Assembly: GCA_029260375.1 (NCBI GenBank)
Contig: JAJDDI010000068.1
Coordinates: 1 to 64,000 of the forward strand
DNA length: 64,000 bases
Source of the DNA: Phycisphaerales bacterium
GTDB taxonomy: Bacteria > Planctomycetota > Phycisphaerae > Phycisphaerales > UBA1924
Direction of reading: 5' to 3'
Position 1 is the stretch's first letter; the number at the start of each line of letters is the position of its first letter. The translations under genes were made by a program, and so were the position numbers. Below, in pieces: positions 18,150 to 34,300 of the stretch. The notes under the pieces are model-generated. The model searched no databases. It was not told the origin of the DNA and worked only from the letters and a program-made list of their open reading frames with translations.

Positions 18150-19379
18150 ATGCGTCGAGTGATGATGGGTGGGGTGCTGTGTGCCGTGGCCTTGGCCGCG
18201 GGCGCGTGCGCCGTGAACCGGGCTGAGGTTGACGTGAACGTCTCGGTCAACGATGGCTGGGTCGATCTGTTCAACGGCGAGGACCTCACCGGCTGGACGG
18301 GCGGAGCCGATGGGGCCTGGGTCGTTGAGGACGGCGAGATCGTCACCGCCAAGCCCGGGCGGGGCTGGTGGCTGCGCACCGATCGGATGTACCGCGATTT
18401 CGAGCTGGAGCTGGATTTCTGGATGCCCGAGGGCGGCAACTCGGGCCTGGGGCTCCGGGGCAGCTCGGGCGGGGACCCGGCGTTCACGGGTCTCGAGGTC
18501 CAGATGCTCGACACGCACGGGCAATCGCCGGATGTGCACAACTGCGGCGCCGTGTACGAGGCGATCGCGCCCCGGGCGATGGCCGTGCACCCGGCGGGGC
18601 AGTGGAACAGCTACCGCGTCCGTCTCGTCGGCGACGTGCTGGACGTCTGGCTCAACGACGTGCACATCCACGCGGGCCAGAAGCTCGACGGGCGGGGCTA
18701 CTTCCGCAAGCCCGAGCAGAAGCTGCCGCTCAACACCCGCGCGACGACGGGGTACATCTCGCTGCAGGACCACGGGCACGCGTTCCGGTACCGCAACATC
18801 CGCATCAAGGACCTCTCGCCCGATCCCGAGCCCAGGGGCATGGTCCACCTTATTTCGGGCATGGACGGGGACGACCCCGCTGGATGGTTCAGCGAGGACG
18901 CCGCGGTGTGGGCGGTTGAGCACGGCGCGATCGTCGGGCGCAACGGGCCCGGGCACCTGTTCACCAATGCCGAGTTCACCGACTTCGAGATGCGCACGCT
19001 GGTGAAGGTCAACGCCCGGGGCAACTCGGGGATCTACTACCACGCGCAGCCGAACCCGGACCCCAACAACCCGTGGCCGGCGGGCTACGGGTACGAGGCG
19101 CAGGTCGATCAGCACGACACGAAGAACTACACCGGGTGCATCTACAACACCGCCTGGCCAGAGTCTGGTCCGGGCCGGGACGGGCCGATCACGCGAGACG
19201 ATGCTTGGTTCGACTACAGGATCCGGGCGGAGGGCGACCGGGTGCGCACGTGGATCAACGGCGTGCCGTTTGTGGACGCCGAGCTGTGCGAGTTCAAGAG
19301 CGGGCGGTTCGCGCTGCAGGGGCACCACAACGGGAACGAGATCATGTTCAAGGACTTCCGGGTTCTTGAGCTGGACTGA
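18150..19379 (+). CDS. Lipoprotein with two DUF1080 (3-keto-disaccharide hydrolase) domains
   Basis: 409 residues with a lipoprotein signal (lipobox AAGAC, Cys near residue 20). Two DUF1080 domains are visible. The first (about 32-222) opens with WVDLFNGEDLTGWTGG and contains NSGLGLRG; the second (about 230-409) contains NARGNSGIYYHAQPN. The family is beta-jelly-roll and has members that hydrolyse 3-keto-glycosides. It would act outside the cytoplasm, lipid-anchored. GAGGAG lies 7 nt before the ATG. Gfo/Idh/MocA oxidoreductases and TIM-barrel isomerases follow, as expected for a pathway that oxidises sugars at C3, cleaves them and isomerises the product. Confidence 0.85.
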   Translation: MRRVMMGGVLCAVALAAGACAVNRAEVDVNVSVNDGWVDLFNGEDLTGWTGGADGAWVVEDGEIVTAKPGRGWWLRTDRMYRDFELELDFWMPEGGNSGLGLRGSSGGDPAFTGLEVQMLDTHGQSPDVHNCGAVYEAIAPRAMAVHPAGQWNSYRVRLVGDVLDVWLNDVHIHAGQKLDGRGYFRKPEQKLPLNTRATTGYISLQDHGHAFRYRNIRIKDLSPDPEPRGMVHLISGMDGDDPAGWFSEDAAVWAVEHGAIVGRNGPGHLFTNAEFTDFEMRTLVKVNARGNSGIYYHAQPNPDPNNPWPAGYGYEAQVDQHDTKNYTGCIYNTAWPESGPGRDGPITRDDAWFDYRIRAEGDRVRTWINGVPFVDAELCEFKSGRFALQGHHNGNEIMFKDFRVLELD

Positions 19380-19385
19380 TCTCGG

Positions 19386-20534
19386 TCAGTCGGTCCATTC
19401 CACCCAACTCGATCCGTCGCGGGCGCTCTGCACGCAGAGTTCGACAAACCGCACGCCGCGCCTGCCGTCTTCAGCGGTGGGGGTGAGGGTGTCGGCGTCT
19501 GGTTGACCGGCTCGCTTGCTTTCGATCGCGTCGCAGGCGCCGCGGTAGATGTTGGCGAAGGCCTCGATGAAGCCCTCGGGGTGTCCGGGGGGGAGGCGCG
19601 TGGCGCTGGTTGCGGCGGGGGAGCGGTCGCCGCCGCGGGTGATGAGACGGCGGTCGCCGTCGAGCGAGGTCTGTTCGAGGACGTTGGGATTCTCCTGACG
19701 CCAGATCAGGGCGCCGGTCTCGGCGTAGACACGGAGGGTGAGCCCGTTCTCCTCGCCGACGCAGACCTGCGAGCAGGTGAGCGTGCCCTTGGCGCCGCCC
19801 TTGAAGCGGAGCAGGGCGCTGGCGTCGTCGTCGAGGGATCGCCCGGGGACGAACGAGGTCAGGTCGGCGCAGAGGGAGTCGATCTCGAGTCCGGTGACGA
19901 ACGAGACCAGATTCTCGGCGTGCGTGCCGATGTCGCCCAGCGCGCCCGCGATCCCGGCCCGCTCGGGGTCCGTGCGCCAGGAAGCCTGCTTCATGCCCGT
20001 GTCTTCGAGCGCTGTCGCGAGCCAACCCTGGTGGTACTCGGCGTACACCTTGCGGAGCTGGCCGATCGCGCCCGACGCGATGAGCGATCGCATCTCGCGG
20101 ACGAGCGGGTAGCCGGTGTAGTTGTAGGTGACGGCGCAGACGAGGTTATTATTGCGCGCCAGGTCGCGGAGCTCGATGGCCTGAACGCTGGTCATCGTGA
20201 ATGGCTTGTCACAGACCACGTGCAGCCCGGCCTCAAGGCAAGCTTTGGCGACCGGGTGGTGCAGGTGGTTGGGCGTGACGACGGAGACGAAGTCCACACG
20301 ATCGGACTCGGGGCGGGCGGTCTCGCGTTCGATGAGTTGCTGGTAGCTCTCGTAGGACCGGTCGGGGTCGAGACCCAGGGACCTGGCCGAGTCGAGGCTG
20401 CGCTGCGGGGTGGAGGACAGGGCGCCCGCGATGAGCTGGGCGCGTCCGTCAAGGGCCGCGGCCAGGCGGTGGACGCCTCCGATGAAGGCGTCCACACCGC
20501 CGCCGACCATGGCGAAGCGGAGCGGGGGGCTCAT
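19386..20534 (-). CDS. Gfo/Idh/MocA-family oxidoreductase (cytoplasmic)
   Basis: 382 residues, no signal peptide. The N-terminal Rossmann domain has a glycine-rich loop ([15 protein letters not shown]), and the family EKP motif is DKP at 109-111 (VVCDKPFT). The C-terminal alpha/beta substrate domain includes [16 protein letters not shown](P)-dependent oxidation or reduction of a cyclic sugar or inositol-like substrate is expected. Its ATG overlaps the stop of the downstream isomerase gene by 4 bp (ATGA), so the two are translationally coupled and should act in one pathway. Confidence 0.88.
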
Positions 20535-21535
20535 TGCTTGTCCTTGTCAAATGCCGCGTCGAAGGCCCCGTGGGCGGGGTCGAAGTCGATGGCTCGAACG
20601 AACTCAACAGCTTCGGCGGCGCCGTGCTCCCGGGACATGGCGCTGTCCTCCCACTCGACCGAGAGCGGCCCGGTGTAGTTCGCGCGGTTGAGCGCACGGG
20701 TGATGCTCTCGAAGTCCACATCGCCCCGACCCGGCGAACGGAAGTCCCAGCCGCGGTTGGGGTCGCCGAAGGAGAGGTGGCTGGCGAGGATGGAGGTTGA
20801 GCCGTCGAGGGTCTGGGCGGCGTCCTTGACGTGGACGTGGAATATGCGGTCTGCGAAGCGGTCGATGAACTTGGCGGGGTCGATTCCCTGCCAGATGAGG
20901 TGGGACGGGTCGAGGTTGGCGCCGAACGCGGGGTGGTTGTTCACAGCCTGGATCGCCCGATCAAAGGTGTGGATGTCGTAGGCGATCTCGGTGGGGTGGA
21001 CCTCGAGGGCGAACTTGACAGCGTGCTTCTGGAAAGCGTCGAGGATGGGCGTCCAGCGGGCGGCGAACTCGCGGTAACCCTGGTCGATCTCGTCTTGGCT
21101 GGTGGGGGGGAAGAAGTAGAGCTTGTGCCAGACGGGCGAGCCGGTGAAGCCGTTGACAACATCAACGCCGAAGGCCTTGGCGGCGTCGGCGGTCACGATC
21201 ATCTCCTCCACGGCCCGCTCGTTGACGCCCTCCGGATCACCCTCGCCCCAGACGCGGTCGGGGAGGATGGACTTGTGGCGCTCGTCGATCGGGTCCGAGA
21301 CGGCCTGGCCCACGAGGTGGTTGGAGATCGCCCAGCAGTTCAGGCCGTGCTTGGCGAGCAGGTCGCGTTTCTGGCGGCAGTAGGCGTCTTCGCTCAGAGC
21401 CCGGTCGACCTCGAAGTGGTCGCCCCAGCAGGCGAGTTCGAGCCCGTCGTAGCCCCAGTCCGAGGCCATTTGAGCGAGGGTCACGAGGGGGAGGTCGGCC
21501 CACTGGCCGGTGAAGAGGGTGACGGGTCGGGGCAT
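20531..21535 (-). CDS. Sugar phosphate isomerase/epimerase-type TIM barrel
   Basis: 334 residues of the xylose isomerase-like TIM-barrel superfamily, metal dependent. Typical strands are seen in [44 protein letters not shown] and [10 protein letters not shown], with Glu/Asp/His ligands for a divalent metal. No signal peptide, so cytoplasmic. The ATG at 21535 follows GAGGAG. The Gfo/Idh/MocA gene downstream overlaps by 4 bp. Likely role: epimerise or isomerise a keto-sugar made by the linked oxidoreductase. It diverges from the symporter gene across 92 bp. Confidence 0.87.
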
Positions 21536-21627
21536 GGGGTTCTCCTCGTGCGGGCCATCGTACCCACACGCGGGGGCGATCTCTGTAGACTCCGCGATCC
21601 ACCCTGAAGCCCAGGCAGGAGATCTCA

Positions 21628-22971
21628 ATGTCGAACGAGGCGCCGCCCCCGGGACAGTCGGGTCAGCTGGTCGTGACCCGGTTGTCCGTGATGATGTTTT
21701 TCCAGTTCTTCGTCTGGGGCGCGTGGTTTGTGACGCTCGGCCCGTTCATGGGCGCGCTCGGCTTCGAGGGCGTGGACATCGCCAACGCGTACTCGACGGC
21801 TCCGATCGCGGCAATCATCAGCCCGTTCTTCCTGGGCATCATTGCGGACCGGTTCTTCCCGAGCCAGCGGGTCATGGGCGTGCTCCACCTGCTGGGCGGG
21901 GTTCTGCTGTTGTTGGCGCCGTACGTCGCGGGCCGGGGCACGGAGAACGCCTGGCCGTTCATCGGGATCTTGCTGGCGCACATGCTGTGCTACATGCCCA
22001 CGCTGGGCCTCTCGAACGCGGTCGCGTTCAACGCGATGCACAACCCGGAGAAGCAGTTCCCGATCGTCCGGGTCTGGGGCACGATCGGCTGGATCGTCGC
22101 GGGCTTCGGTGTCGGCCTGCTCGCGGGAAAGCTCGCCCAGACCGCCGGGCTCAGCGACGCGGACGCGGAGAAGGCCCGGGCGTCGGTCCCGGTGTTCTTC
22201 TATGTCGCGGGCGGGGCGGGGATCTGGCTGGGTCTGATGAGCTTCTTCATGCCGAACACCCCCGCGCCGAGCAAGGGCAAGCCCTTCAGCGTCGGGTCGA
22301 TCGTCGGGGTGGACTCGCTCCGCCTGCTGAAGCAGCGGTCGTTCGCGGTGTTCATCGTCTGCTCGACGCTCATCTGCATCCCGCTCGCGGCGTACTACAG
22401 CTTCGCGGCGACCTACGCGGGCGAGGCCGGCGTTCAGAACGTGCCGATCAAAATGACCTTCGGGCAGATGAGCGAGATCGTCTTCATGCTTGTGATGCCG
22501 TTCTTCTTCATCCGCCTCGGAGTGAAGTGGATGCTCGCGATCGGCATGCTCGCGTGGGTGCTCCGGTACGGGCTCTTCGCGGGTGCGTGGGCGGGCGCGG
22601 GGGGCGACCACATCACATGGATGATCCTTGGGGGCATCATCCTGCACGGCATCTGCTACGACTTCTTCTTCGTCACCGGGCAGATCTACACGGAGCGGAC
22701 GGCGCCCCCCGAAGTCCGCGCCCAGGCCCAGGGGTTCCTGGTGCTGGTGACCCAGGGCGTGGGCATGCTCATCGGAAACCAGGTCTTCGGGCGGCTCGTG
22801 GACCACTACTCGGGCGACGAGGGCACGGACTGGCAGACCGTCTGGGCCATCCCCGCGGCCTTCGCGCTGCTGGTGCTCGTGGTCTTCGTCCTGCTGTTCA
22901 AGGGACCGGGGCGGGGGCGGGGCGTCTCGTTGGAGGAGGCGGAGGCCGAGTCTCCCGAGGGTTTGCCCTAA
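21628..22971 (+). CDS. Nucleoside:H+ symporter-family MFS permease
   Basis: 447 residues with about twelve membrane helices. The start resembles the NupG/XapB family: [20 protein letters not shown], then [13 protein letters not shown], the conserved [14 protein letters not shown], and [13 protein letters not shown] in helix 5. In planctomycetes and Bacteroidota these permeases often lie among Gfo/Idh/MocA and TIM-barrel genes, and the substrate may be a sugar derivative rather than a nucleoside. GGAG precedes the ATG. The context fits uptake of the products made by the exported oxidoreductases nearby. Confidence 0.85.
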
Positions 22972-23040
22972 GCGAGCGCCCGGGGTTTGCGGAACAGGGG
23001 CGATCCGCTAGGCTACGGGTTCCCCAACGAACCGGAGCAG

Positions 23041-24378
23041 ATGATGAGCGATGAGCGACGTGAAGCGGCGATGACCAACGAATCCAGGCGGGCGTTCCTT
23101 GGCAAGGCCGCGGCGATGGCGGGGGCGGGCGCCGTGCTCAGCGCTGCCGCGTCTGGCGCCTCGGCGGGCCTGCTCCCCAGCGTCGCCAGGGGCAAGACCA
23201 AGCCTCCGAAGGGCGACGAGCCGATCCGCATGGCGGTCATCGGCCCGGGCGGGATGGGCACGGGGCACTGCCAGGCGTTCTCGACGTTTGCCAAGGACGG
23301 GCGGGCGAACGTGCAGATCGTCGCCGTGGCGGATGTCAACGACCTCCACGCGGCCCGCGGCAAGCGCGTCATCGAGGAGAAGCAGGGCAAGGACAGCGTC
23401 CAGACCTACCGCAACTATCGCGACATGATCGAGCGCGATGATATTCACGGCGTGCTCATCGCCAGCCCCGAGCACTGGCACGCGCAGCACACCATCGACT
23501 CGCTCACCGCGGGCAAGGACGTGTACTGCGAGAAGCCCATGACCCTGAACTTGGATCAGGCGATGGACGTCCGCAAGGTCGTGCTGGGCAACCCGGACCG
23601 GATCTTCCAGGTGGGCACCCAGAAGATGATCCTGCCCAAGTACGTCAGCGCCCGCCAGGCGATCAAGGACGGCAAGATCGGCAAGGCCCTGTGGAGCCAG
23701 ACGAGCTACTGCCGCAACACCCCCAACGGCGAGTGGAACTACTACGGCATCGACGAGAACTGGAAGCCGGGCGTGAACCTGGACTGGGACGAGTGGTGCG
23801 GTCACCTTGGCCCGCGCGAGTGGGACCCGAAGGTGTACATCCGCTGGCGGCGCTACCGGGACTTCTCCACGGGCATCATCGGCGACCTGCTCGTGCACGA
23901 GATGACGCCCATGATCCATGCCTTGGATGCGGGCTGGCCCGTCAAGGTCGTCGCGACGGGCGCGCACCTGATCGACACGGACATGGAGAACCACGACCAG
24001 GTGAACCTGACCGTGCAGTTCGAGGACGGGCACACGATGATCGTCGCGGGCGCGACGAACAACGAGGTCGGGCTCGAGACCATGATCCGGGGCGACCGGG
24101 CGAACATCTACCTGGGCTCGCGCAACTGCGTGATCCGCCCGGAGCGGGCGTACGCCGACGATGTGGACGCCGAGACACTCACGGGGACCAACATCGACAA
24201 CGACCAGGACTACCTGCGTCTGAACTGGCTCGAGTGCATCCGAAGCCGCAAGCCGGCGGTGTCGAACATCGACCTGGCCTCGAAGGTGATGGTCGCGGTC
24301 GATCTGGCGACGCGGGCGATGTGGGACGGGCACGCGTACACGTTCGACCCGAGCTCGATGCGCGCCAGCCGTGTGTGA
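23041..24378 (+). CDS. Tat-exported Gfo/Idh/MocA-family oxidoreductase
   Basis: 445 residues from the ATG at 23041 (GGAG just upstream); ATG codons at 23044 and 23071 are alternatives. A Tat signal is clear: SRRAFLGKAAAMAGAGAV. The Rossmann domain has IGPGGMGTGHCQ, the canonical EKP motif (CEKPMTLN) and a C-terminal domain with GIIGDLLVHEMTPMIHALD. Like glucose-fructose oxidoreductase, it should fold with NAD(P) bound before export. The last 8 bases overlap the ApbE gene. Substrate unknown; sugar oxidation outside the cytoplasm is the likely job. Confidence 0.9.
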   Translation: MMSDERREAAMTNESRRAFLGKAAAMAGAGAVLSAAASGASAGLLPSVARGKTKPPKGDEPIRMAVIGPGGMGTGHCQAFSTFAKDGRANVQIVAVADVNDLHAARGKRVIEEKQGKDSVQTYRNYRDMIERDDIHGVLIASPEHWHAQHTIDSLTAGKDVYCEKPMTLNLDQAMDVRKVVLGNPDRIFQVGTQKMILPKYVSARQAIKDGKIGKALWSQTSYCRNTPNGEWNYYGIDENWKPGVNLDWDEWCGHLGPREWDPKVYIRWRRYRDFSTGIIGDLLVHEMTPMIHALDAGWPVKVVATGAHLIDTDMENHDQVNLTVQFEDGHTMIVAGATNNEVGLETMIRGDRANIYLGSRNCVIRPERAYADDVDAETLTGTNIDNDQDYLRLNWLECIRSRKPAVSNIDLASKVMVAVDLATRAMWDGHAYTFDPSSMRASRV

Positions 24379-25279
24379 GGGCGACACCCCGGGTATCGTC
24401 CGCCTCGCGTGCTCTGCGATGGGGACACGGTTCGAAGTGGTTATCGCCTGCGTTGGTTCGGCTTCGCACGCGGCGCAGATGCGGGCGGTGGGCGAGGAGG
24501 CCCTGGCTCTCATCGGCGAGTGGCACGACCGCCTGAGCACGTTCGATCCGGGGTCGCTGGTGTCCAAGATCAACCGCGAGGGCGCAAGCCTCCCGGTTCC
24601 CGTCGACGACGAGCTGTTCGGGCTGCTTGCGATGTGTGAGCGGATTCGGGTGGACTCTGAGGGCGCATTCGACGTGAGCGTCGGGTCGCTGATGCGCGCC
24701 CACGGCTTTCGCCCGGGCGGGACGGGCGAGCCAACGAGCGAGCGAGGCGTGCGCGGGCTGACGCTCGGTCTGTCGGCTCAGAGCGTCGAGCTGCGGGGCG
24801 GGGCGGAGATCGATCTCGGGGCCATCGCCAAGGGCGCGGCCCTCGACGCGGCGCGCGAGATCTTACTCGATGCGGGCGTGGAGTCTGCGCTCATTCACGG
24901 CGGGGGGAGCACGATCGTCGCGATCGGCGCGCCCCCGGGCGCGGACGCCTGGCGGGTGCGGCTGGGCGATGAGCCCGGCGCGCCGAGCGTGCGCCTGCGG
25001 GATCAGAGCGTGTCGTATTCTTCGGCGCGCCCGGGCGGGATTGAGCACGTGATGGACCCGCGATCGGGCCGCCCGACCCGGGCGTGCGAGGCGAGCGCGT
25101 GCGTGGGCGAGTCGGCGCTGGAGACCGACGCTTGGGCGACGGTCCTGTTTGTTCGGGGCGAACGCCCCATGCGTATGAGCGAGCGTCTGACAAGCGCCGT
25201 CCGGATCGACGGCGTGTGGGCGCTCGCGGGGGCGGCTTGCGGTAGGATCGAGCTATGCACCAAGGAGACCTGTCCGTGA
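24371..25279 (+). CDS. apbE: FAD:protein FMN transferase (ApbE family), no signal peptide
   Basis: 302 residues from a GTG that overlaps the preceding gene. ApbE motifs: CSAMGTRFEV, TFDPGSLVSKINREG, AFDVSVGSLMRAHGF, EIDLGAIAKGAALD, HVMDPRSGRPTR and ETDAWAT (metal-binding Asp). The step that usually reads like TSGdYer is SYSSARPGG. The family moves FMN from FAD onto a Thr/Ser of target proteins. Most members are exported or lipoproteins; this one shows no signal, so it may act in the cytoplasm. No obvious flavinylation target was seen in the neighbours. Its TGA overlaps the GTG of the next gene. Confidence 0.85.
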   Translation: MCEGDTPGIVRLACSAMGTRFEVVIACVGSASHAAQMRAVGEEALALIGEWHDRLSTFDPGSLVSKINREGASLPVPVDDELFGLLAMCERIRVDSEGAFDVSVGSLMRAHGFRPGGTGEPTSERGVRGLTLGLSAQSVELRGGAEIDLGAIAKGAALDAAREILLDAGVESALIHGGGSTIVAIGAPPGADAWRVRLGDEPGAPSVRLRDQSVSYSSARPGGIEHVMDPRSGRPTRACEASACVGESALETDAWATVLFVRGERPMRMSERLTSAVRIDGVWALAGAACGRIELCTKETCP

Positions 25280-26508
25280 CCCAGGATCTTGATCGTCGTC
25301 GGTTTATCACGCAGGTCGGGGGCGGACTGGTCGCGTCGGCGATCGTCCCCAGCCTTGCCAGCGCCTCGAGCTGGGCTGGGCGGGCGCCGCTGAGGATCGG
25401 CGTGGTGGGCGCCGGGCGACAGGGGCGGGCGATCCTGGGCGAGCTGACCAAGCTCGCGGGCGCCGAGGTGAGCGCGATCTGCGACTCGGACGAGCGCCGC
25501 CTGGGCTCGGGTTTGCGCCGGGCCAGCGGGGCCGAGGGCTTTGCCAGCCTGAACGACATGCTGGGCAAACGGTCTGATCTTGACGCGGTCGTGGTTGCGA
25601 CGCCCACGCCCACGCACAAGGCGGTTGCGGTCCAGGCGATCGAGTCGGGCAGGCACGTGTACTGCGAGGCGCCGCTGGCGCACACGGTCGAGGACTGCCT
25701 GGCGATCAACAGCGCGGCCCGGTCGGCCAAGGGTGTTGTCGCGGCGGGGCTGCAGGGGCGGTCCAACCCGGTGTACGACCTGGCCCGCGGGTTCTTCCGA
25801 TCCGACTCGGTGCGTGACCTGGTGAGCATGCGGGCCCAGCGCCACGAGAAAACCAGCTGGGTCTCGCCCTCGCGGGACGCCTCGCGGTACAAGGAGCTCA
25901 ACTGGAAGCTCGACCCGGACGTGACGACCGGGCTCGCGGGCGAGTGGGGAACGCACCAGTTCGACGTCTTCCACTGGTACACCGGGCGGTACCCGGTCCG
26001 CGTCAGCGGGCATGGGAGCATCCGCCTGCACGACGACGGACGGAAGATCCACGACACCATCGCGTGCACACTCATCTTCCAGGACGGCGCGGCGCTGCAG
26101 TACGGCGCGACGCTGGCCAACACGTACGGCGGGAAGCACGAGGTTCTGTTCGGCGCCAACGCCGCGATCAAGCTCGCGTGGAGCCACGGGTGGATGTTCA
26201 AGGAGCCCGACGCCCCGACCCAGGGGTGGGAGGTCTACGCCAACCGCCAGCAGTTCCACAACGACGAGGGCATCACGCTCATCGCGGGCGCCACGAAACT
26301 CTCAGAGCAGGGCAAGCTCAAGGACGGCGTCGGGCTGCCCAACAGCTCGCTGTACTACGCGCTGGAGAACTGGCTGGGCGCGATCGCGGGCGACAGTGAG
26401 GTCGCCTGCCCGATCGGGGAGGCCGTCCGCGCGACGGCGGTCGGTATCGCGGCCCACAAGGCCACGGCTCAGGGAATCACCATCGACGTCGAGATGCCCG
26501 ACGTCTGA
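25276..26508 (+). CDS. Tat-exported Gfo/Idh/MocA-family protein with altered EKP motif
   Basis: 410 residues. The GTG at 25276 is chosen because AAGGAGA lies 8 nt upstream and the codon overlaps the ApbE stop as GTGA; an ATG 21 bases earlier would sit before that site. The Tat signal reads DRRRFITQVGGGLVASA. The nucleotide loop is VVGAGRQGRA. The family motif EKP is changed to EAP at 131-133 (YCEAPLAHT), so the lysine usually needed for catalysis is missing. The C-terminal domain has GLAGEWGTHQFDVFHWY. It may be a non-standard oxidoreductase or a binding protein. Confidence 0.85.
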   Translation: MTQDLDRRRFITQVGGGLVASAIVPSLASASSWAGRAPLRIGVVGAGRQGRAILGELTKLAGAEVSAICDSDERRLGSGLRRASGAEGFASLNDMLGKRSDLDAVVVATPTPTHKAVAVQAIESGRHVYCEAPLAHTVEDCLAINSAARSAKGVVAAGLQGRSNPVYDLARGFFRSDSVRDLVSMRAQRHEKTSWVSPSRDASRYKELNWKLDPDVTTGLAGEWGTHQFDVFHWYTGRYPVRVSGHGSIRLHDDGRKIHDTIACTLIFQDGAALQYGATLANTYGGKHEVLFGANAAIKLAWSHGWMFKEPDAPTQGWEVYANRQQFHNDEGITLIAGATKLSEQGKLKDGVGLPNSSLYYALENWLGAIAGDSEVACPIGEAVRATAVGIAAHKATAQGITIDVEMPDV

Positions 26509-26522
26509 GCGAGGAACAGTCA

Positions 26523-27299
26523 ATGCCCGCGAGCTCAACCCTGCCCCGCCTGAAGGATCTCGGGCTGCTCTTCCGCCTGGGCGTGACGTGCCTGGTGCTG
26601 ACGCTGCTTGGGGGGTACGTCGTCTCGGGGATTCACCTGCGAAAGCACTACGACAACCGGGACGAGAGCCCCGGGTTCACGCTCGACGACGTTCGCGCGG
26701 CGTACCACGGGATCTCGGCGCCCTCGCCCCTGCGCGCAGCGCTGCAAGACGGGCACCCCGAGGACCTGGCCCAGGCGGACCGCGACGCGCTGCTGGCCTG
26801 GCTTGACTCGGACAGCCTGAGCCAGGACTACGACAACCTGGACCTGGGCGATGAGGCGCCGGCGGAGATCATCGCGGTGAGTTGCCTTGACTGTCATGCC
26901 CGCGGCAGCGAGGACCCGGGCTCGGCGATCCCGCTTGAGTACTGGGACGACGTCCGCCCGCTCGCGTTTAGCACAGATATCCAGCCCACGCCTGACGAGA
27001 TCATCGCGGTCTCGCAGCACACGCACGCGCCGACGATGGCGATGGTATTGCTGATCGTCGGTGCTTTGGGCGCGATGACGCGCTGGGCGCGGGCGTTTGT
27101 GGGTTTGCTGGTGGCGGTAGGGGGCGTGGGGCTGCTGCTGGACATGGCCGCGTGGTGGCTGGCGAAGGACAACGCCGCGTGGGTGTACGCGATCGTGGGC
27201 GGTGGATTGGCGCAGGGCGCCAGCGTGATGCTGCTGGGGCTCATCAGCCTGATCGATATGTGGCTGCCCGGCGGGCGGTCACGCCCAAACTTGGATTAG
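26523..27299 (+). CDS. Membrane protein with one c-type heme motif
   Basis: 258 residues. TM1 is at about 18-36, then an extracytoplasmic domain of about 130 residues with a single CLDCH at 121-125, then three or four helices between 170 and 248. His166 and His168 just before the next helix could be axial ligands. I do not recognise the family. It lies 14 bp after an exported Gfo/Idh/MocA gene with its own GAGGAA site, so it is probably in the same transcript and could pass electrons from periplasmic sugar oxidation into the membrane. Its stop overlaps the convergent isomerase stop. Confidence 0.7.
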
Positions 27300-28234
27300 C
27301 CCTCGGCGATGTCCATGCGGACGCGTTCGAGCAGGGCCTTGGTGAGGCTGCTGCCCTCGCGCGGGCTGTGCTTAGATCCCTCATATTCCACGCCCACGTG
27401 CCCGTGGTAGCCCGCGTCCACGACGATGCGAAGCATCCGGTCGTAGTCGGTCTTGGTCTCGTTCCCCTGGTCGTCGAACTCGTGGCTCTTGGCGCTGACG
27501 GCCTTGGCGAAGGGCATCAGCTCGCCGACGCCCTTGTACCGGTCGTACCAGGCGTCGGGCTCGCTCGAGCGTGACCAGTCGATGCAGAAGTTGCCGAAGT
27601 CGGGGAGCGTGCCGCAGCGGGGGTGATCGACGAGCTTCATGACCCCGGCGAGCCACTGGCCGTTGGAGCTGAACCCGCCGTGGTTCTCGACAATGACGTT
27701 GATCCCGTGCTCGTCGCCGATCTCGGTCAACCGGCGCAGCCCGTCGGCGGCGAGCTTCTGCTGCTCTTCATAGGAGCCCGAGCTCTGGGCGTTGACGCGG
27801 ATCGAGTGGCAGCCGAGCGTCTTGGCGGCGTCGATCCACGGGCGGTGGTTGTCGATGGCCTCGGCGCGTTTGGCGTCGTCGGTATCGCCAAGGGCGCCCT
27901 CGCCGTCGATCATGATCAGGAGCTGCGTGACACCCTCGTCCGAGGCCCGCGTGTTCATCTGGGCGAGATAGGCCTGGTCTCTCGCCTTGTCCTTGAAGAA
28001 GGCGTTGACGTACTCGATGGCGTCGAAGCCCATCGCGCGGGCTTCGCGGGCGAAGTCGAGATTCGAGATCTCGTCCGCGAACAGGAGCTTGTGCAGGGAC
28101 CACTGGGCGAGGGAGATGGTGTAGGGCATGGCGTGCTTCGGCTGGCGGGCGAGGGCCGCGGGGGCGAGGAGCGTCGTCGCAGAGGCGGCCAGGCCCAGCC
28201 TGATCGCGTCTCGCCTGGTGAGGGTGTCGTGCAT
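27296..28234 (-). CDS. Tat-exported sugar isomerase/epimerase-type TIM barrel
   Basis: 312 residues with a Tat signal ([20 protein letters not shown]), cut near residue 29. The TIM barrel of the xylose isomerase-like superfamily shows [51 protein letters not shown] and VGVEYEGS, with the expected Glu, Asp and His metal ligands. It should act outside the cytoplasm with the two Tat-exported oxidoreductases encoded just upstream on the other strand. The ATG at 28234 is the first of the conserved frame. Confidence 0.87.
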
Positions 28235-28388
28235 CGGTCCAGCGTAGTGATTCTCGGAATCGGGGTCGAGCTTCTCGGGCGTTGGGCGTGAATCGGGCGA
28301 GATTTCGGCGGGGCGAGGGGATCGGGATGGGCCGAATCGCGGGGGGTGGTACCCTTGGGTGTTCGGATGAGCCACGGGAGCACGGACG

Positions 28389-30974
28389 TTGACCGAATCG
28401 AGGTTCCAACGCGCGCAGCGGATCTTTGACCGCGTCTGTTCGCTTGACGACGCCGAGCGCGATCGGGCGATCGACGCGGCGTGCGAGGGCGACGCGGACC
28501 TGGCGGCAACGGTGCGGGATCTGATCGCCGCGGACGCGCGGTCCATGTTCCTTGACCGGGTGGCGATCGACACGGACATCCGGCCCGAACGCGCTCACGA
28601 CGTGGCGCTGCCGGATCGAATCGGGCGGTACACGATCGTGTCGGTGCTGGGCGAGGGCGGGATGGGCGTGGTCTACCAGGCCCGCCAGGAGAGCCCCGCC
28701 CGCGACGTGGCGCTCAAGGTGATCCGCCCGGGGCTGGCGTCGCGGTCCGCGATGGCGCGGTTTGCCCACGAGAGCGAGATTCTGGGGCGCCTGCACCACG
28801 CGGGTATCGCGCAGATCCTTGAGGCGGGCGCCGCGGGAGAGGGCGCGGGGCGCCAGCCGTACTTCGCGATGGAGTTCATCCGCGGGCGACCGGTGACGGC
28901 GTACGTTCGCGACGAGAAGCTCGACGTGCGCGAGCGGCTTGAGCTGCTGATGAGCATCTGCGCCGCGGTCGAGCACGCGCACGAGCGGGGGGTGATCCAC
29001 CGCGACCTGAAGCCGGCTAACATCCTCGTCGGCGCCGGCTCCCAGCCCAAGATCCTCGACTTCGGGATCGCACGCCTGACGGACGCGGACGTGCTGACCA
29101 CGACGATGCACACCGGGCGGGGGCAGCTTCTGGGCACGCTGCCGTACATGAGCCCGGAGCAGGTGGTGGGGGATCCCGAAGCGATCGACGGGCGGACCGA
29201 CATCTACGCGTTGGGCGTGATCGCGTACGAGATGCTGTGCGGCGAGCTGCCGCTGGACCTGCGGGACAAGCCGATCTCGGAGGCCGTGGGGATCATCTGC
29301 TCCGAGGAGCCATCTAAGCTCGGGACGCTCAACCGCTCGCTGCGGGGCGACATCGAGACGATCGTCTCGACGGCGATGGACAAGGACCCGGAGCGCCGGT
29401 ACCAGAGCGCGGGCGACTTCCGGGCGGACATCGAGCGCTACCTGCGGGACGACCCGATCGTGGCGCGCCCGCCCAGTCTGATGTATCAGACGCGGAAGTT
29501 TGCGCGCCGGAACAAGGCGGCGGTCGGCAGCGTGGGCGTGGTTTTTCTGGTGCTCCTGGTGGCGTCGATCGTGTCCACCAAGCTGGCGATCGACGCGAGC
29601 CGGTCGCTCAAGGCGGAGAAGGTGGCCAAGCAGGCGGCGGAGGACTCGCTTGAGGCGGAGCGGCTGGCCAAGCAGGCCGCAGAGACGTCACTCCAGGCCG
29701 AGCAGGAGGCGAAGGCCAAGGCGGTGCTGGAGGCGGCCAAGTCCACGTCGGTGACGGTGTTCCTCGAGCGCATGCTGCTGTCGGCGAGCCCGTGGGGGCG
29801 ATCGGGATTGAGCGGGCCAGAGGTGACGCTCGTGCAGTTCCTTGAGGTCGCCGTCGGGGGGCTCGAAGAGTTCGCGGGCGAGCCGGAGGTCGAGGCGGCG
29901 CTGCTGATGACCATCGGGACGACGTACAAGGAGCTGGGGAAGGTGCGTCAGGCCGAGCCGCTGCTGGCCCGGGCGGTCGAGATCCGCGAGCGGGTGCTTG
30001 AGCCGCATCACCCGATGATCGCCGAGGCGCTGCGGCATCTGGGCACCACCCGTGCACGACTCGGTCGCGTCGAAGAGGGAATCGCGGACCTGCGCCGGGC
30101 GCTGGACATCATGGAGCGTGAGCTGGGAGCGGAGCACTGGGATGTGACGAAGGTCCGGTCCGATCTTGGGTGGGCGCTGTACACCGCGGGGGAGCTCGAT
30201 GAGGCGCGCGAACTCATGGTCCTGGCGATCGGGCAGATGAGGGCGCACGAGAACCCGGACGGGCACGTGATGGGCACGGCGCTGGTCAATCTGGGCGCCA
30301 TAGAGAAGCAGCTCGGCAATCTCGACGACGCGGTCAGGCAGTACGAGGCGGGCATCGCCTCGCTTGGCCCTGACTCGCTCACGAGCGCCATGGTGGAGTC
30401 GAACCTGGGCAATATCGCGTACGCGCGTGGTGACTACGCTCGTGCCGAGGAGATGCACCGCGCGGCGCTGCGCATCCTCAAGGCCAACCTGGATCCGTTC
30501 CACCCAACACTCGGGACCGTCTACAACAACCTCGGGCTCGCGCTGGGTCAGCTCGACCGCCAGGAAGAAAGCGTGGAGCTGCAGCTGCGGGCGATGGAGA
30601 TCTCCGGGCGCGTGTACGGCAAGGACAGCCGGGATTACAACATATCGCTGGGCAATATCGCGTACGACCTGGCGGCGCTTGGCCGCTACCGCGAGGCCGC
30701 CGACGCGTGGATCGCGGTCGCGGACTGGTACGCTGAGAACGACCCATCGAGCCCGAAGGGGCCGATCCGCAAGGTGCGGGCGTACGCGGAGATCGGCGGG
30801 CGTGGCATGGACTGGGGCGACGCGGAGACGGCGATGCTCGCGGCGTACGAGCACCTGGTCGAGCTTGCCGGGGCGGACCACCAGTATTCGGTGAGCGCGC
30901 GCAGGGCGATCGCCGCGTTCTACGAGCGGTGGGGCAGGCCCGATCGGGTCCAGGCGTTCCGGGACGAGCCGTGA
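28389..30974 (+). CDS. Serine/threonine protein kinase with TPR sensor region
   Basis: 861 residues from a TTG start. The kinase domain is complete: GEGGMGVVY loop at 88-96, Lys110, HRDLKP at 204-209, DFG at 224-226 and MSPEQ. A single membrane helix follows at about 377-397. Then comes a charged heptad region with two near-identical 14-residue units, then at least seven tetratricopeptide repeats (about 500-830) that should be outside the membrane. The N-terminal 75 residues are the short helical leader usual in planctomycete kinases. It converges on an ECF sigma factor gene, 3 bp apart, a pairing common in this phylum. Confidence 0.88.
29613..29696 (+). repeat. 42-bp tandem repeat within kinase gene
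   Basis: Two in-frame units of 42 bp encode the 14-residue heptad-like units at residues 409-422 and 423-436 ([14 protein letters not shown] and [14 protein letters not shown]), followed by a decayed third unit. They form a predicted coiled coil between the membrane helix and the TPR region. Confidence 0.6.
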
Positions 30975-30977
30975 CGT

Positions 30978-31559
30978 TCAGCCGCTGAGAGTCTCGTCGC
31001 TGAGCGAGCTGGCAAGCCAGGCCCGGGTGAACCGCCAGCGGCGCTCCACGGTTGAGAGCGAGACGCCCAGGATCTCGCTGATCTGCTCGTTGGTCAGGCC
31101 CACGAAGAACCGCAGCCCCACGATCTGAGCGCTCTCGTGGTCCTCTTTCTCCAAACGTTCGAGCGCCTCGCTCAGGGCGAGCACCTCGTCGGGCTTGACG
31201 GCCAGCTCGAAGGCCGGGTCGTCCAGCGGGGTTCGCTTACGATCGCCGCCGCGCTTGAGGGTGGATTTGCGTCGGGCGCTCTCGACGGTGATGTCGCGCA
31301 TGGCGCGGGCCGCGGCAAAGAAGAAGTGGCGGCGCCCCTCGAAGCGGGCGTTGCCATCGCCCACGAGGCGGAGGTAGGCCTCGTGCACGAGCGCGGTTGG
31401 CTGGAGTGTCTGGCCCCCCTGGGCTCCCGCCATCCGGGCCCGCGCCAGGGCGCGCAGCTCGTCGTAGACCATCGCCAGCAGGTCTCGCGCGGCGGTGGTG
31501 TCTCCGGTCGCCGCGGCGCTGAGGGTGCGGGTGACTCTGTCGGGGTCGGCTGGGCTCAT
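30978..31559 (-). CDS. ECF-type RNA polymerase sigma factor
   Basis: 193 residues. Region 2 is seen around ALVHEAYLRLVG and FFFAAARAMRDITVESAR, region 4 around GLTNEQISEILGVSLSTVERRWRF. The pattern matches the planctomycete ECF group found next to protein kinases. No anti-sigma factor is adjacent; the convergent TPR kinase, 3 bp away, is the likely partner, perhaps acting by phosphorylation. No Shine-Dalgarno is evident before the ATG. Confidence 0.9.
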   Translation of the reverse strand: MSPADPDRVTRTLSAAATGDTTAARDLLAMVYDELRALARARMAGAQGGQTLQPTALVHEAYLRLVGDGNARFEGRRHFFFAAARAMRDITVESARRKSTLKRGGDRKRTPLDDPAFELAVKPDEVLALSEALERLEKEDHESAQIVGLRFFVGLTNEQISEILGVSLSTVERRWRFTRAWLASSLSDETLSG

Positions 31560-33682: not shown

Positions 33683-34300
33683 TCAGCGGCGACGACGCGC
33701 GGCGGCCAGTCCGCCTAGCGCGAGCATCGCGGCGGACGCCGGCGCGGGAACGACGGAGATGATGACGTCGTCCACGAAGAGCAGCGAGGTGCTGCCGATG
33801 TTGGCGCCGGTGGTGGCGGTGAGCTGCAGGGTCACGCCCCCGCTGACGTCGGCGCCGGCGGTGGTGGTGAAGCTGAAGAAACGCCATTCGGTGTCGGAGA
33901 TGTTGAGAGGAGCGCCGCCGAGGATCTCGGAGGAGGAGGTGCCCCCGGCGTCGATCTCAGAGAAGAACTCGGCGAAGTTCACGCCGCCGTTGGCGTTGGC
34001 GCCCTTGGCCCAGAAGGAGATGTTGATCTCGTCGCCGGCTTCGACGATGCCGATGCCGACGTTGGCCTGCTTGATGACCGCGGCGCTGCCGCTGGCGAGG
34101 TTTTCGAGACGCCCGCTGAAGGCGCCCGAGAAGGCGTCGGTGCTTACGTCGAAGGAGGAGTTGCCAGTCGGGAAAGACTGCCACCCGGAGGTGTCGCCGG
34201 CCTCGAAGCCGCCGTTCACGGCCAGGTCGATCCCCGCGTTGGCAACGCCAGCGGTGAGTGCCAGGGCGATGGTCGCCCGTGTCAGGGTCTTGGTGGTCAT
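33683..34300 (-). CDS. PEP-CTERM-like secreted protein with carbohydrate-binding-like fold
   Basis: 205 residues with a signal peptide (to about residue 22). The body is a beta sandwich like CBM4/CBM9-type modules: NGGFEAGDTSGWQS, then FWAKG and FFSFTTTAG. The C-terminus is a sorting signal of PEP-CTERM type: VPAPASAAMLALGGLAAARRRR as three parts (VPAP, hydrophobic helix, Arg run). The protein should be processed by an exosortase-type system, which is not in the window. AGGAGAAGAAGAG precedes the ATG. A terminator follows, so it is probably transcribed alone. Confidence 0.85.
   Translation of the reverse strand: MTTKTLTRATIALALTAGVANAGIDLAVNGGFEAGDTSGWQSFPTGNSSFDVSTDAFSGAFSGRLENLASGSAAVIKQANVGIGIVEAGDEINISFWAKGANANGGVNFAEFFSEIDAGGTSSSEILGGAPLNISDTEWRFFSFTTTAGADVSGGVTLQLTATTGANIGSTSLLFVDDVIISVVPAPASAAMLALGGLAAARRRR

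Follow-up and report, generated by a model that had tools for sequence, protein, structure and literature searches.

A Conserved Planctomycete Cassette of Two Gfo/Idh/MocA Proteins, an ApbE-Family Protein, and a Membrane Protein with a Single CxxCH Motif

The Locus

The stretch of DNA that we analyzed, here called the window, comprises 64,000 nucleotides from a Phycisphaerales bacterium. Within it, four genes follow one another on the same strand in the order GFO1 – ApbE – GFO2 – T, an order that is conserved and in which T comes last (table 1). The ATG of T is preceded by a GAGGAA stretch and lies after a gap of 14 nt from the upstream gene; judging by its homologs in related genomes and in genomes from across the phylum, the T open reading frame (ORF) is a genuine gene. 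The true start of GFO1 is probably nearer 23041 than 22987. Elsewhere in the window, positions 28389-31559 encode a Ser/Thr protein kinase with TPR repeats, with an ECF sigma factor beside it on the opposite strand, and a small protein encoded at 33683-34300 (-) ends in the tail VPAPASAAMLALGGLAAARRRR, which we take to be PEP-CTERM-like.

Table 1. Features in and around the cassette, with positions in the window
Feature	Position	Strand	Description	Match, conservation, or basis
3-Keto-disaccharide hydrolase	18150..19379	+	Two-domain	PF06439 2.2e-82, 276 bits
Gfo/Idh/MocA oxidoreductase	19386..20534	-	Outside cassette	PF22725 1.5e-29
TIM barrel	20531..21628	-	Xylose-isomerase-like	PF01261 3.2e-45; homolog near 10/38 cassettes
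MFS transporter	21628..22971	+	Nuc_H_symport	PF03825 2.2e-111; homolog near 20/38 cassettes, window counted
GFO1	22987..24378	+	Gfo/Idh/MocA, Tat-type signal SRRAFL, EKP kept	PF01408 9.3e-18; 46/53 loci
ApbE	24371..25279	+	ApbE-family FAD:protein FMN transferase, no recognizable export signal	PF02424 1.1e-42
GFO2	25255..26508	+	Gfo/Idh/MocA fold, RRxF Tat-type start, EAP for EKP, invariant loop GITLIA[DGE]AT	PF01408 8.8e-21
GFO2 loop, residues 325-359	26227..26331	+	Predicted disordered; T347 at 26293-26295	Highly conserved; mostly pLDDT < 50
T	26523..27299	+	258-aa 4-TM membrane protein, single CxxCH in TM1-TM2 loop	ORF, homologs, model
H78 of T	26754..26756	+	Candidate sixth heme ligand	Invariant 19/19; Met nearby in 16/16 distant CxxCH members
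C121-L-D-C124-H125 of T	26883..26897	+	c-Heme attachment motif (SCLDCH)	Invariant 19/19; 80/117 loci with T
H166-T-H168 of T	27018..27026	+	Near exported end of TM2 (QHTH = 165-168)	26/26 in alignment A3; 115/117 loci
TIM barrel	27296..28579	-	Xylose-isomerase-like, convergent with T	PF01261 1e-27; homolog near 14/38 cassettes

T Is a Membrane Protein Outside the Named Families

The AlphaFold model of T (mean pLDDT 91.7, pTM 0.80; heme absent from the model) contains long helices at residues 15-43, 158-184, 190-213, and 220-247, that is, the predicted layout is a first TM helix, an exported loop (44-157), and three TM helices after the loop. The Arg and Lys residues at both termini and in the link from TM2 to TM3 would fit a cytoplasmic location of these parts. 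Neither Pfam (best match Trp_oprn_chp, E 0.52) nor NCBIfam returned a family for T. Among the Pfam families of flavinylation-associated membrane proteins, namely PepSY, MsrQ-like, NapH-like, NqrB/RnfD, DsbD, and DUF4405, none matched T at E <= 1 and none was found in nine T relatives. A Foldseek comparison of the model with the PDB gave nothing at E <= 0.001, and the best match of a VIA fold search (Z 8.3) consisted of common helical arrangements. T may resemble gammaproteobacterial proteins annotated "elongation factor-1 alpha." A first-pass annotation of the same DNA had described an unrecognized membrane protein with a single CxxCH, in which TM1 is followed by a heme loop and three or four helices in an arrangement that it could assign to no family. 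The ORF, its one CxxCH, and the TM layout of the heme-free model, with three helices after the loop, bear out this description, and the profile searches, which that annotation had itself proposed, uphold the lack of a known family for Pfam and NCBIfam.

Homologs of T, most of which come from metagenome-assembled genomes, are found in 19 of 60 related genomes; across the phylum, a first profile detected them in 59 of 294 genomes, and a broader profile in 126 of 392. A scan of genome contigs yielded 25 loci, 23 with titles of planctomycetes or the Phycisphaerae type and two titled just bacterium. Plasmids searched by tblastn with T and two distant T proteins gave no match.

The CxxCH Motif and the Histidines of T

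The residues C121, C124, H125, H166, H168, S164, T186, and H78 are invariant in all 19 aligned closer homologs of T, and the CxxCH is kept in 24 of the 26 rows of a wider alignment (A3). The first-pass annotation had named a CxxCH that is not conserved among homologs as evidence against its own reading; because the motif is invariant in 19/19, this objection falls away. No cytochrome c profile of Pfam or NCBIfam matched T above its cut-off, and sub-threshold matches over the heme region appeared only in distant T members. When a T profile was compared with the sequences of the PDB, the best matches were c-type cytochromes across the CxxCH region. The genome itself encodes a cytochrome c assembly protein and TatC. 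As judged from sequence, T very probably carries one heme.

Close members of the family have GH[PA] 43 to 56 residues ahead of the first Cys (8/8 in A3), and distant members have a Met 37 to 63 residues ahead of it (16/16). Loci L105 and L107 lack the CxxCH together with all of the stretch that bears the distal His or Met. Since loss of the CxxCH coincides with loss of this distal loop, H78 is a likely candidate for the sixth ligand in T, and we regard it as a better one than H166 or H168. The latter two sit in the first turns of helix 158-184 in the AlphaFold model. Among the 117 loci with T, 79 have both CxxCH and HxH, 36 have HxH only, one has CxxCH only, and one has neither; the share with HxH only does not equal a population frequency, because 40 of the loci (L143-L182) were hand-picked from 126 genomes and are mostly short forms. 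As the HxH is kept in these 36 loci without a CxxCH, it is not just a heme c ligand, and so it would have a role of its own, toward a quinone or a second cofactor. We therefore rejected H166 and H168 as ligands of the T heme c only, given the persistence of HxH in these loci and in L105 and L107. The first-pass proposal that these histidines could serve as axial ligands thus finds less support and is probably wrong.

A Conserved Cassette

We compared 53 loci with a close T homolog, 40 from whole genomes (the window counted) and 13 from named contigs; the latter, which include L116, were used from the 25 loci of the contig scan, of which ten others repeat contigs already included and two are distant. 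The neighborhoods of T (58 stretches) were examined by similarity and conservation and then with profiles on stop-to-stop frames. Upstream of T, GFO2 is found in 51 of the 53 loci, ApbE in 48, and GFO1 in 46, where the counts refer to loci and not to independent lineages. In 35 of the 36 loci with called ORFs, the gap from GFO2 to T measures -35 to 31 nt, and L116 has the full cassette. Four of the five loci without ApbE offer less than 1.5 kb upstream of T (131 bases in L071; 0.9 to 1.4 kb in L041, L119, and L122). L118 is a true exception, in which T occurs without any cassette gene and is preceded, at some distance, by an elongation factor-like ORF. The ApbE of L106, counted among the 48, is a fragment at a contig end, and in L084 and L086 other genes lie inside the cassette, with ApbE 6.8 to 7.1 kb from T. 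In the 60 relatives, GFO2 is present in 20 genomes and T in 19; the two sets of genomes differ only by G007 (locus L183), in which GFO2 and ApbE are close to the end of a contig and the remaining 1.16 kb contains no T. Around the distant CxxCH-type T genes of L088-L104, the stretches fetched contain no cassette-type ApbE (17/17), and the T family is therefore not tied to this cassette alone. T is real, conserved, and unnamed. We found no description of GFO1 – ApbE – GFO2 – T in the non-subscription literature searched.

Of 38 cassettes (window counted), 19 have a homolog of the 3-keto-disaccharide hydrolase in the region fetched, compared with 0 of 21 other loci, which consist of 19 distant-T loci and two short close-T contigs. 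Together, the hydrolase, the TIM barrels, and the MFS transporter around the cassette indicate the catabolism of 3-keto sugars.

GFO1 and GFO2

Both proteins contain the Rossmann and C-terminal domains (PF01408, PF02894), and RR-type Tat starts are recognized by pattern in 42 of 45 GFO1 and 42 of 50 GFO2 sequences. From the alignments of the two, rows without RRxF and near-duplicates were omitted, which leaves 28 of 36 GFO2 (A4) and 27 of 33 GFO1 (A5) sequences. The Lys of the EKP motif is catalytic in Gfo/Idh/MocA enzymes. GFO1 keeps the motif in 27/27 aligned rows (A5) and matches the NCBIfam model for glycoside 3-dehydrogenase at 3.2e-25, below the cut-off of that model; it is a probable glycoside 3-dehydrogenase. 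In GFO2, the site reads EAP, ESP, ETP, EGP, or ECP in 49 of 51 sequences, the other two being unread by the pattern, and GFO2 is thus without the usual Lys. The model of GFO2 has a pLDDT of 83.2 and a fold match with E 5e-24, and its solved relatives include glucose-fructose and aldose-aldose oxidoreductases.

The most conserved stretch of GFO2 lies around WEVYANRQQFHNDEGITLIA[DGE]ATKLA. A loop that is both conserved and predicted to be disordered might be expected if it docks a partner or bears a cofactor. The invariant Ser/Thr residues of GFO2 in A4 are T347, T116, and T118, of which T116 and T118 belong to the Rossmann part. Of the seven matches in the genome of the window, just one, GFO2, has the LIAxAT loop.

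ApbE and a Candidate Flavin Site

The available text of PMC12052999 names a catalytic Ser/His/Asp triad for ApbE, which we mapped by motif. Aligned to the other ApbE of the genome, the cassette ApbE proteins keep the Ser in 34/35, the His in 34/35, and the Asp in 32/35. By eye, their N-termini begin a few residues before A-M-G-T-R-F and have no signal peptide. Since Tat carries proteins that have already folded, an ApbE that acts in the cytoplasm is consistent with partners exported by this route. The second ApbE gene of the genome (G000:C68:71268-72074, outside the window) has a lipoprotein-like start and lies close to two more Gfo/Idh/MocA genes with RR-type starts.

In the available text of PMC12052999 and PMC10722498, the canonical target motif of ApbE is D-x-x-[ST]-G-A-[ST], and none of GFO1, GFO2, and T conserves it. 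At the candidate site, GFO2 reads [DGE]AT; SGAT occurs there in 1 of 51 sequences, without the Asp six residues before. As GFO2 does not carry the canonical motif, its Thr347 is only a loose candidate for the flavin site. A mutational study cited in the available part of PMC12052999 found that a change of the motif Gly lowered flavinylation to about half and did not abolish it. We rejected GFO1 as the carrier, in which VAGAT is found in only 3 of 33 sequences. We also considered T as the carrier; the T of the window is without even the loose motif, and in the 14 of 59 loci where T matches it, the matches fall at various positions with no common place. The genome of the window (92% complete) encodes no FMN_bind protein at the threshold used.

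A Proposed Route for Electrons into the Membrane

T is nearly always encoded beside two exported sugar-dehydrogenase-like enzymes and an ApbE protein and is therefore probably an electron carrier into the membrane. The first-pass annotation had suggested an electron-transfer module for exported dehydrogenases, for which the conserved cassette, with its two Tat-type Gfo/Idh/MocA proteins and ApbE, provides good support; on the whole it was largely right about the module and probably not about the ligands, as HxH occurs without CxxCH.

We propose for T the role of a c-type cytochrome with a single heme, anchored in the membrane, that links a periplasmic sugar 3-dehydrogenase to the quinone pool, a reading that we consider reasonably probable. 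What the analysis shows is the order and co-occurrence of the genes, their conservation, the Tat-type motifs, the intact catalytic residues of ApbE, the TM layout of the modeled T, and the 3-keto hydrolase nearby. Heme attachment, the distal ligand, the direction of electron flow, the quinone site, the substrate, and the flavin on GFO2 are all elements that we infer in the following route. The glucose-fructose oxidoreductase of Zymomonas leaves the cytoplasm through Tat already folded and holding its NAD(P). GFO1 would be exported by Tat in the same state, with NAD(P) in place, and would oxidize a sugar or glycoside at C3 outside the cytoplasm. GFO2, as a Gfo-fold partner without the usual active-site Lys, would take up or relay the electrons, probably through a flavin that the signal-less ApbE attaches to it in the cytoplasm, ahead of export. 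A bound nicotinamide gives two electrons as hydride, and a heme accepts one at a time. The heme c of T (C121/C124/H125, with H78 as the probable distal ligand) would accept the electrons singly, and the four-TM core of T with H166xH168 would hand them to quinone.

The exported Gfo proteins might instead regenerate the NAD(P) that they carry by means of a second sugar, as glucose-fructose oxidoreductase does, and need no acceptor, in which case T would be merely co-transcribed and serve another process, and the target of ApbE would lie elsewhere. This account would agree with the glucose-fructose and aldose-aldose oxidoreductases among the solved relatives of GFO2 and with the lack of a conserved canonical flavinylation motif in the cassette proteins. 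We nevertheless consider it unlikely, given that T and GFO2 are shared by the same genomes with one exception among the 60, that they adjoin in nearly all loci, and that the genome, 92% complete, has no FMN_bind protein at the threshold used for ApbE to modify. That electrons run the other way, from quinol through T to GFO1 and GFO2 so as to reduce a keto-sugar or another ketone outside, appears quite unlikely to us, since the neighborhood, with its 3-keto-disaccharide hydrolase, isomerase-like proteins, and MFS transporter, looks catabolic. What speaks for this direction is that the characterized flavinylation systems run from a cytosolic donor to an exported acceptor, a direction that is reversible in principle (PMC8238504, in its available text). 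Finally, the CxxCH of T could be a structural or metal site rather than a heme site, as its heme motif is a single one and T reaches the cut-off of no cytochrome c profile. However, 80 of the 117 loci with T retain the His along with both Cys, L105 and L107 drop the CxxCH together with the distal His/Met stretch, and the best PDB sequence matches over the region are c-type cytochromes, all of which makes this explanation highly improbable.

The proposed cytochrome that links a sugar 3-dehydrogenase to quinone can be compared with several known systems. Like the flavinylation-associated membrane proteins, T is encoded beside ApbE and plausibly links a membrane redox pool to exported partners. 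Surveys of flavinylation list NapH-like, MsrQ-like, PepSY-like, DsbD, and NQR/RNF-like partners (PMC8238504, in its available text) and DUF4405 (PMC11334425, likewise), and the string "planctomyc" is absent from the main text of both. Unlike these families, T has a CxxCH in its exported loop, and it matches none of them in Pfam. The membrane cytochrome c subunits of periplasmic sugar dehydrogenases resemble the proposed T in that they connect an exported sugar dehydrogenase to quinone, and a fructose dehydrogenase cytochrome subunit is a weak PDB sequence match of the T profile. Subunits of this type are multi-heme and partner FAD enzymes, whereas T bears a single heme motif, adds three TM helices, and is paired with Gfo proteins of the nicotinamide type. 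Glycoside 3-dehydrogenases (NF058561; PDB 8tdf, 8tdh, 8tdi) are matched by GFO1 and GFO2 in sequence or fold, and a 3-keto hydrolase is encoded nearby; in contrast to them, the cassette has Tat-type export, two adjacent paralogs, ApbE, and a membrane cytochrome, and its GFO2 is without the EKP Lys. The cytosolic ApbE of Klebsiella pneumoniae shares with the cassette ApbE the absence of a signal peptide, but its target is a soluble fumarate reductase (PMC12052999, in its available text), whereas the canonical target motif is missing from the cassette.

In the available text of the survey PMC8238504, an apbE gene without an FMN_bind substrate is still found in 4% of the genomes surveyed, and the cassette supplies partners for such a gene. 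The disposal of electrons by exported NAD(P)-type sugar dehydrogenases is an awkward gap, to which the cassette offers a concrete and testable planctomycete answer.

The Wider T Family

Besides the T described so far, the family includes a shorter form of about 156-240 aa, which retains the TM core and the HxH and is without a CxxCH. We found 17 further T genes that lie at most 120 nt from an ApbE gene and often overlap it, and 13 of the 17 adjoining ApbE proteins contain [ST]GA[ST], most as DIIN[IV]TGATMS. These short T genes with HxH only are those of L143-L147, L149-L151, L155, L159, L161, L166, L167, L170, L171, L173, and L176, and most of the ApbE proteins beside them are about 550-600 aa with TGATMS. 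Pfam identifies an FMN_bind-ApbE fusion in L143 and L105 and a separate FMN_bind protein in L107. From the counts of CxxCH and HxH and the pairing with ApbE and FMN_bind, we conclude that the HxH core is accompanied either by a loop for heme c or by a partner that is flavinylated. An interchange of heme and flavin is described for other systems in the available text of PMC8238504, with which the apparent alternation in the T family would, by analogy, be in line.

A more far-reaching picture may be drawn, to which we give only tentative credence. Here GFO2 would represent a new class of ApbE substrate, flavinylated at Thr347 in the cytoplasm by the signal-less ApbE and exported by Tat to serve as a flavin carrier, and electrons would pass from nicotinamide to covalent flavin, to heme c, and on to quinone; T would found a family of four-TM, HxH-bearing, quinone-linked proteins in which the heme c loop can be exchanged for a flavinylated FMN_bind partner and vice versa. 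With its HxH core joined to either a heme c loop or a flavin protein linked to ApbE, the T family would extend the so far short list of membrane proteins known to feed partners that bear heme or a flavin.

In L097, L099, L100, and L102, a distant T of the CxxCH type lies beside a protein of 590-620 aa, which in L097 has a CxxCH near its start and whose L099 copy has no Pfam match. A short T directly follows a MurJ-like gene (PF03023 in L157) in L153, L154, and L156-L158, with no ApbE near. In L163-L165, a T-like gene (210-229 aa, HxH only) lies opposite FeoB (PF02421 in L163) and ApbE genes, which suggests a role for this gene in the reduction or uptake of iron.
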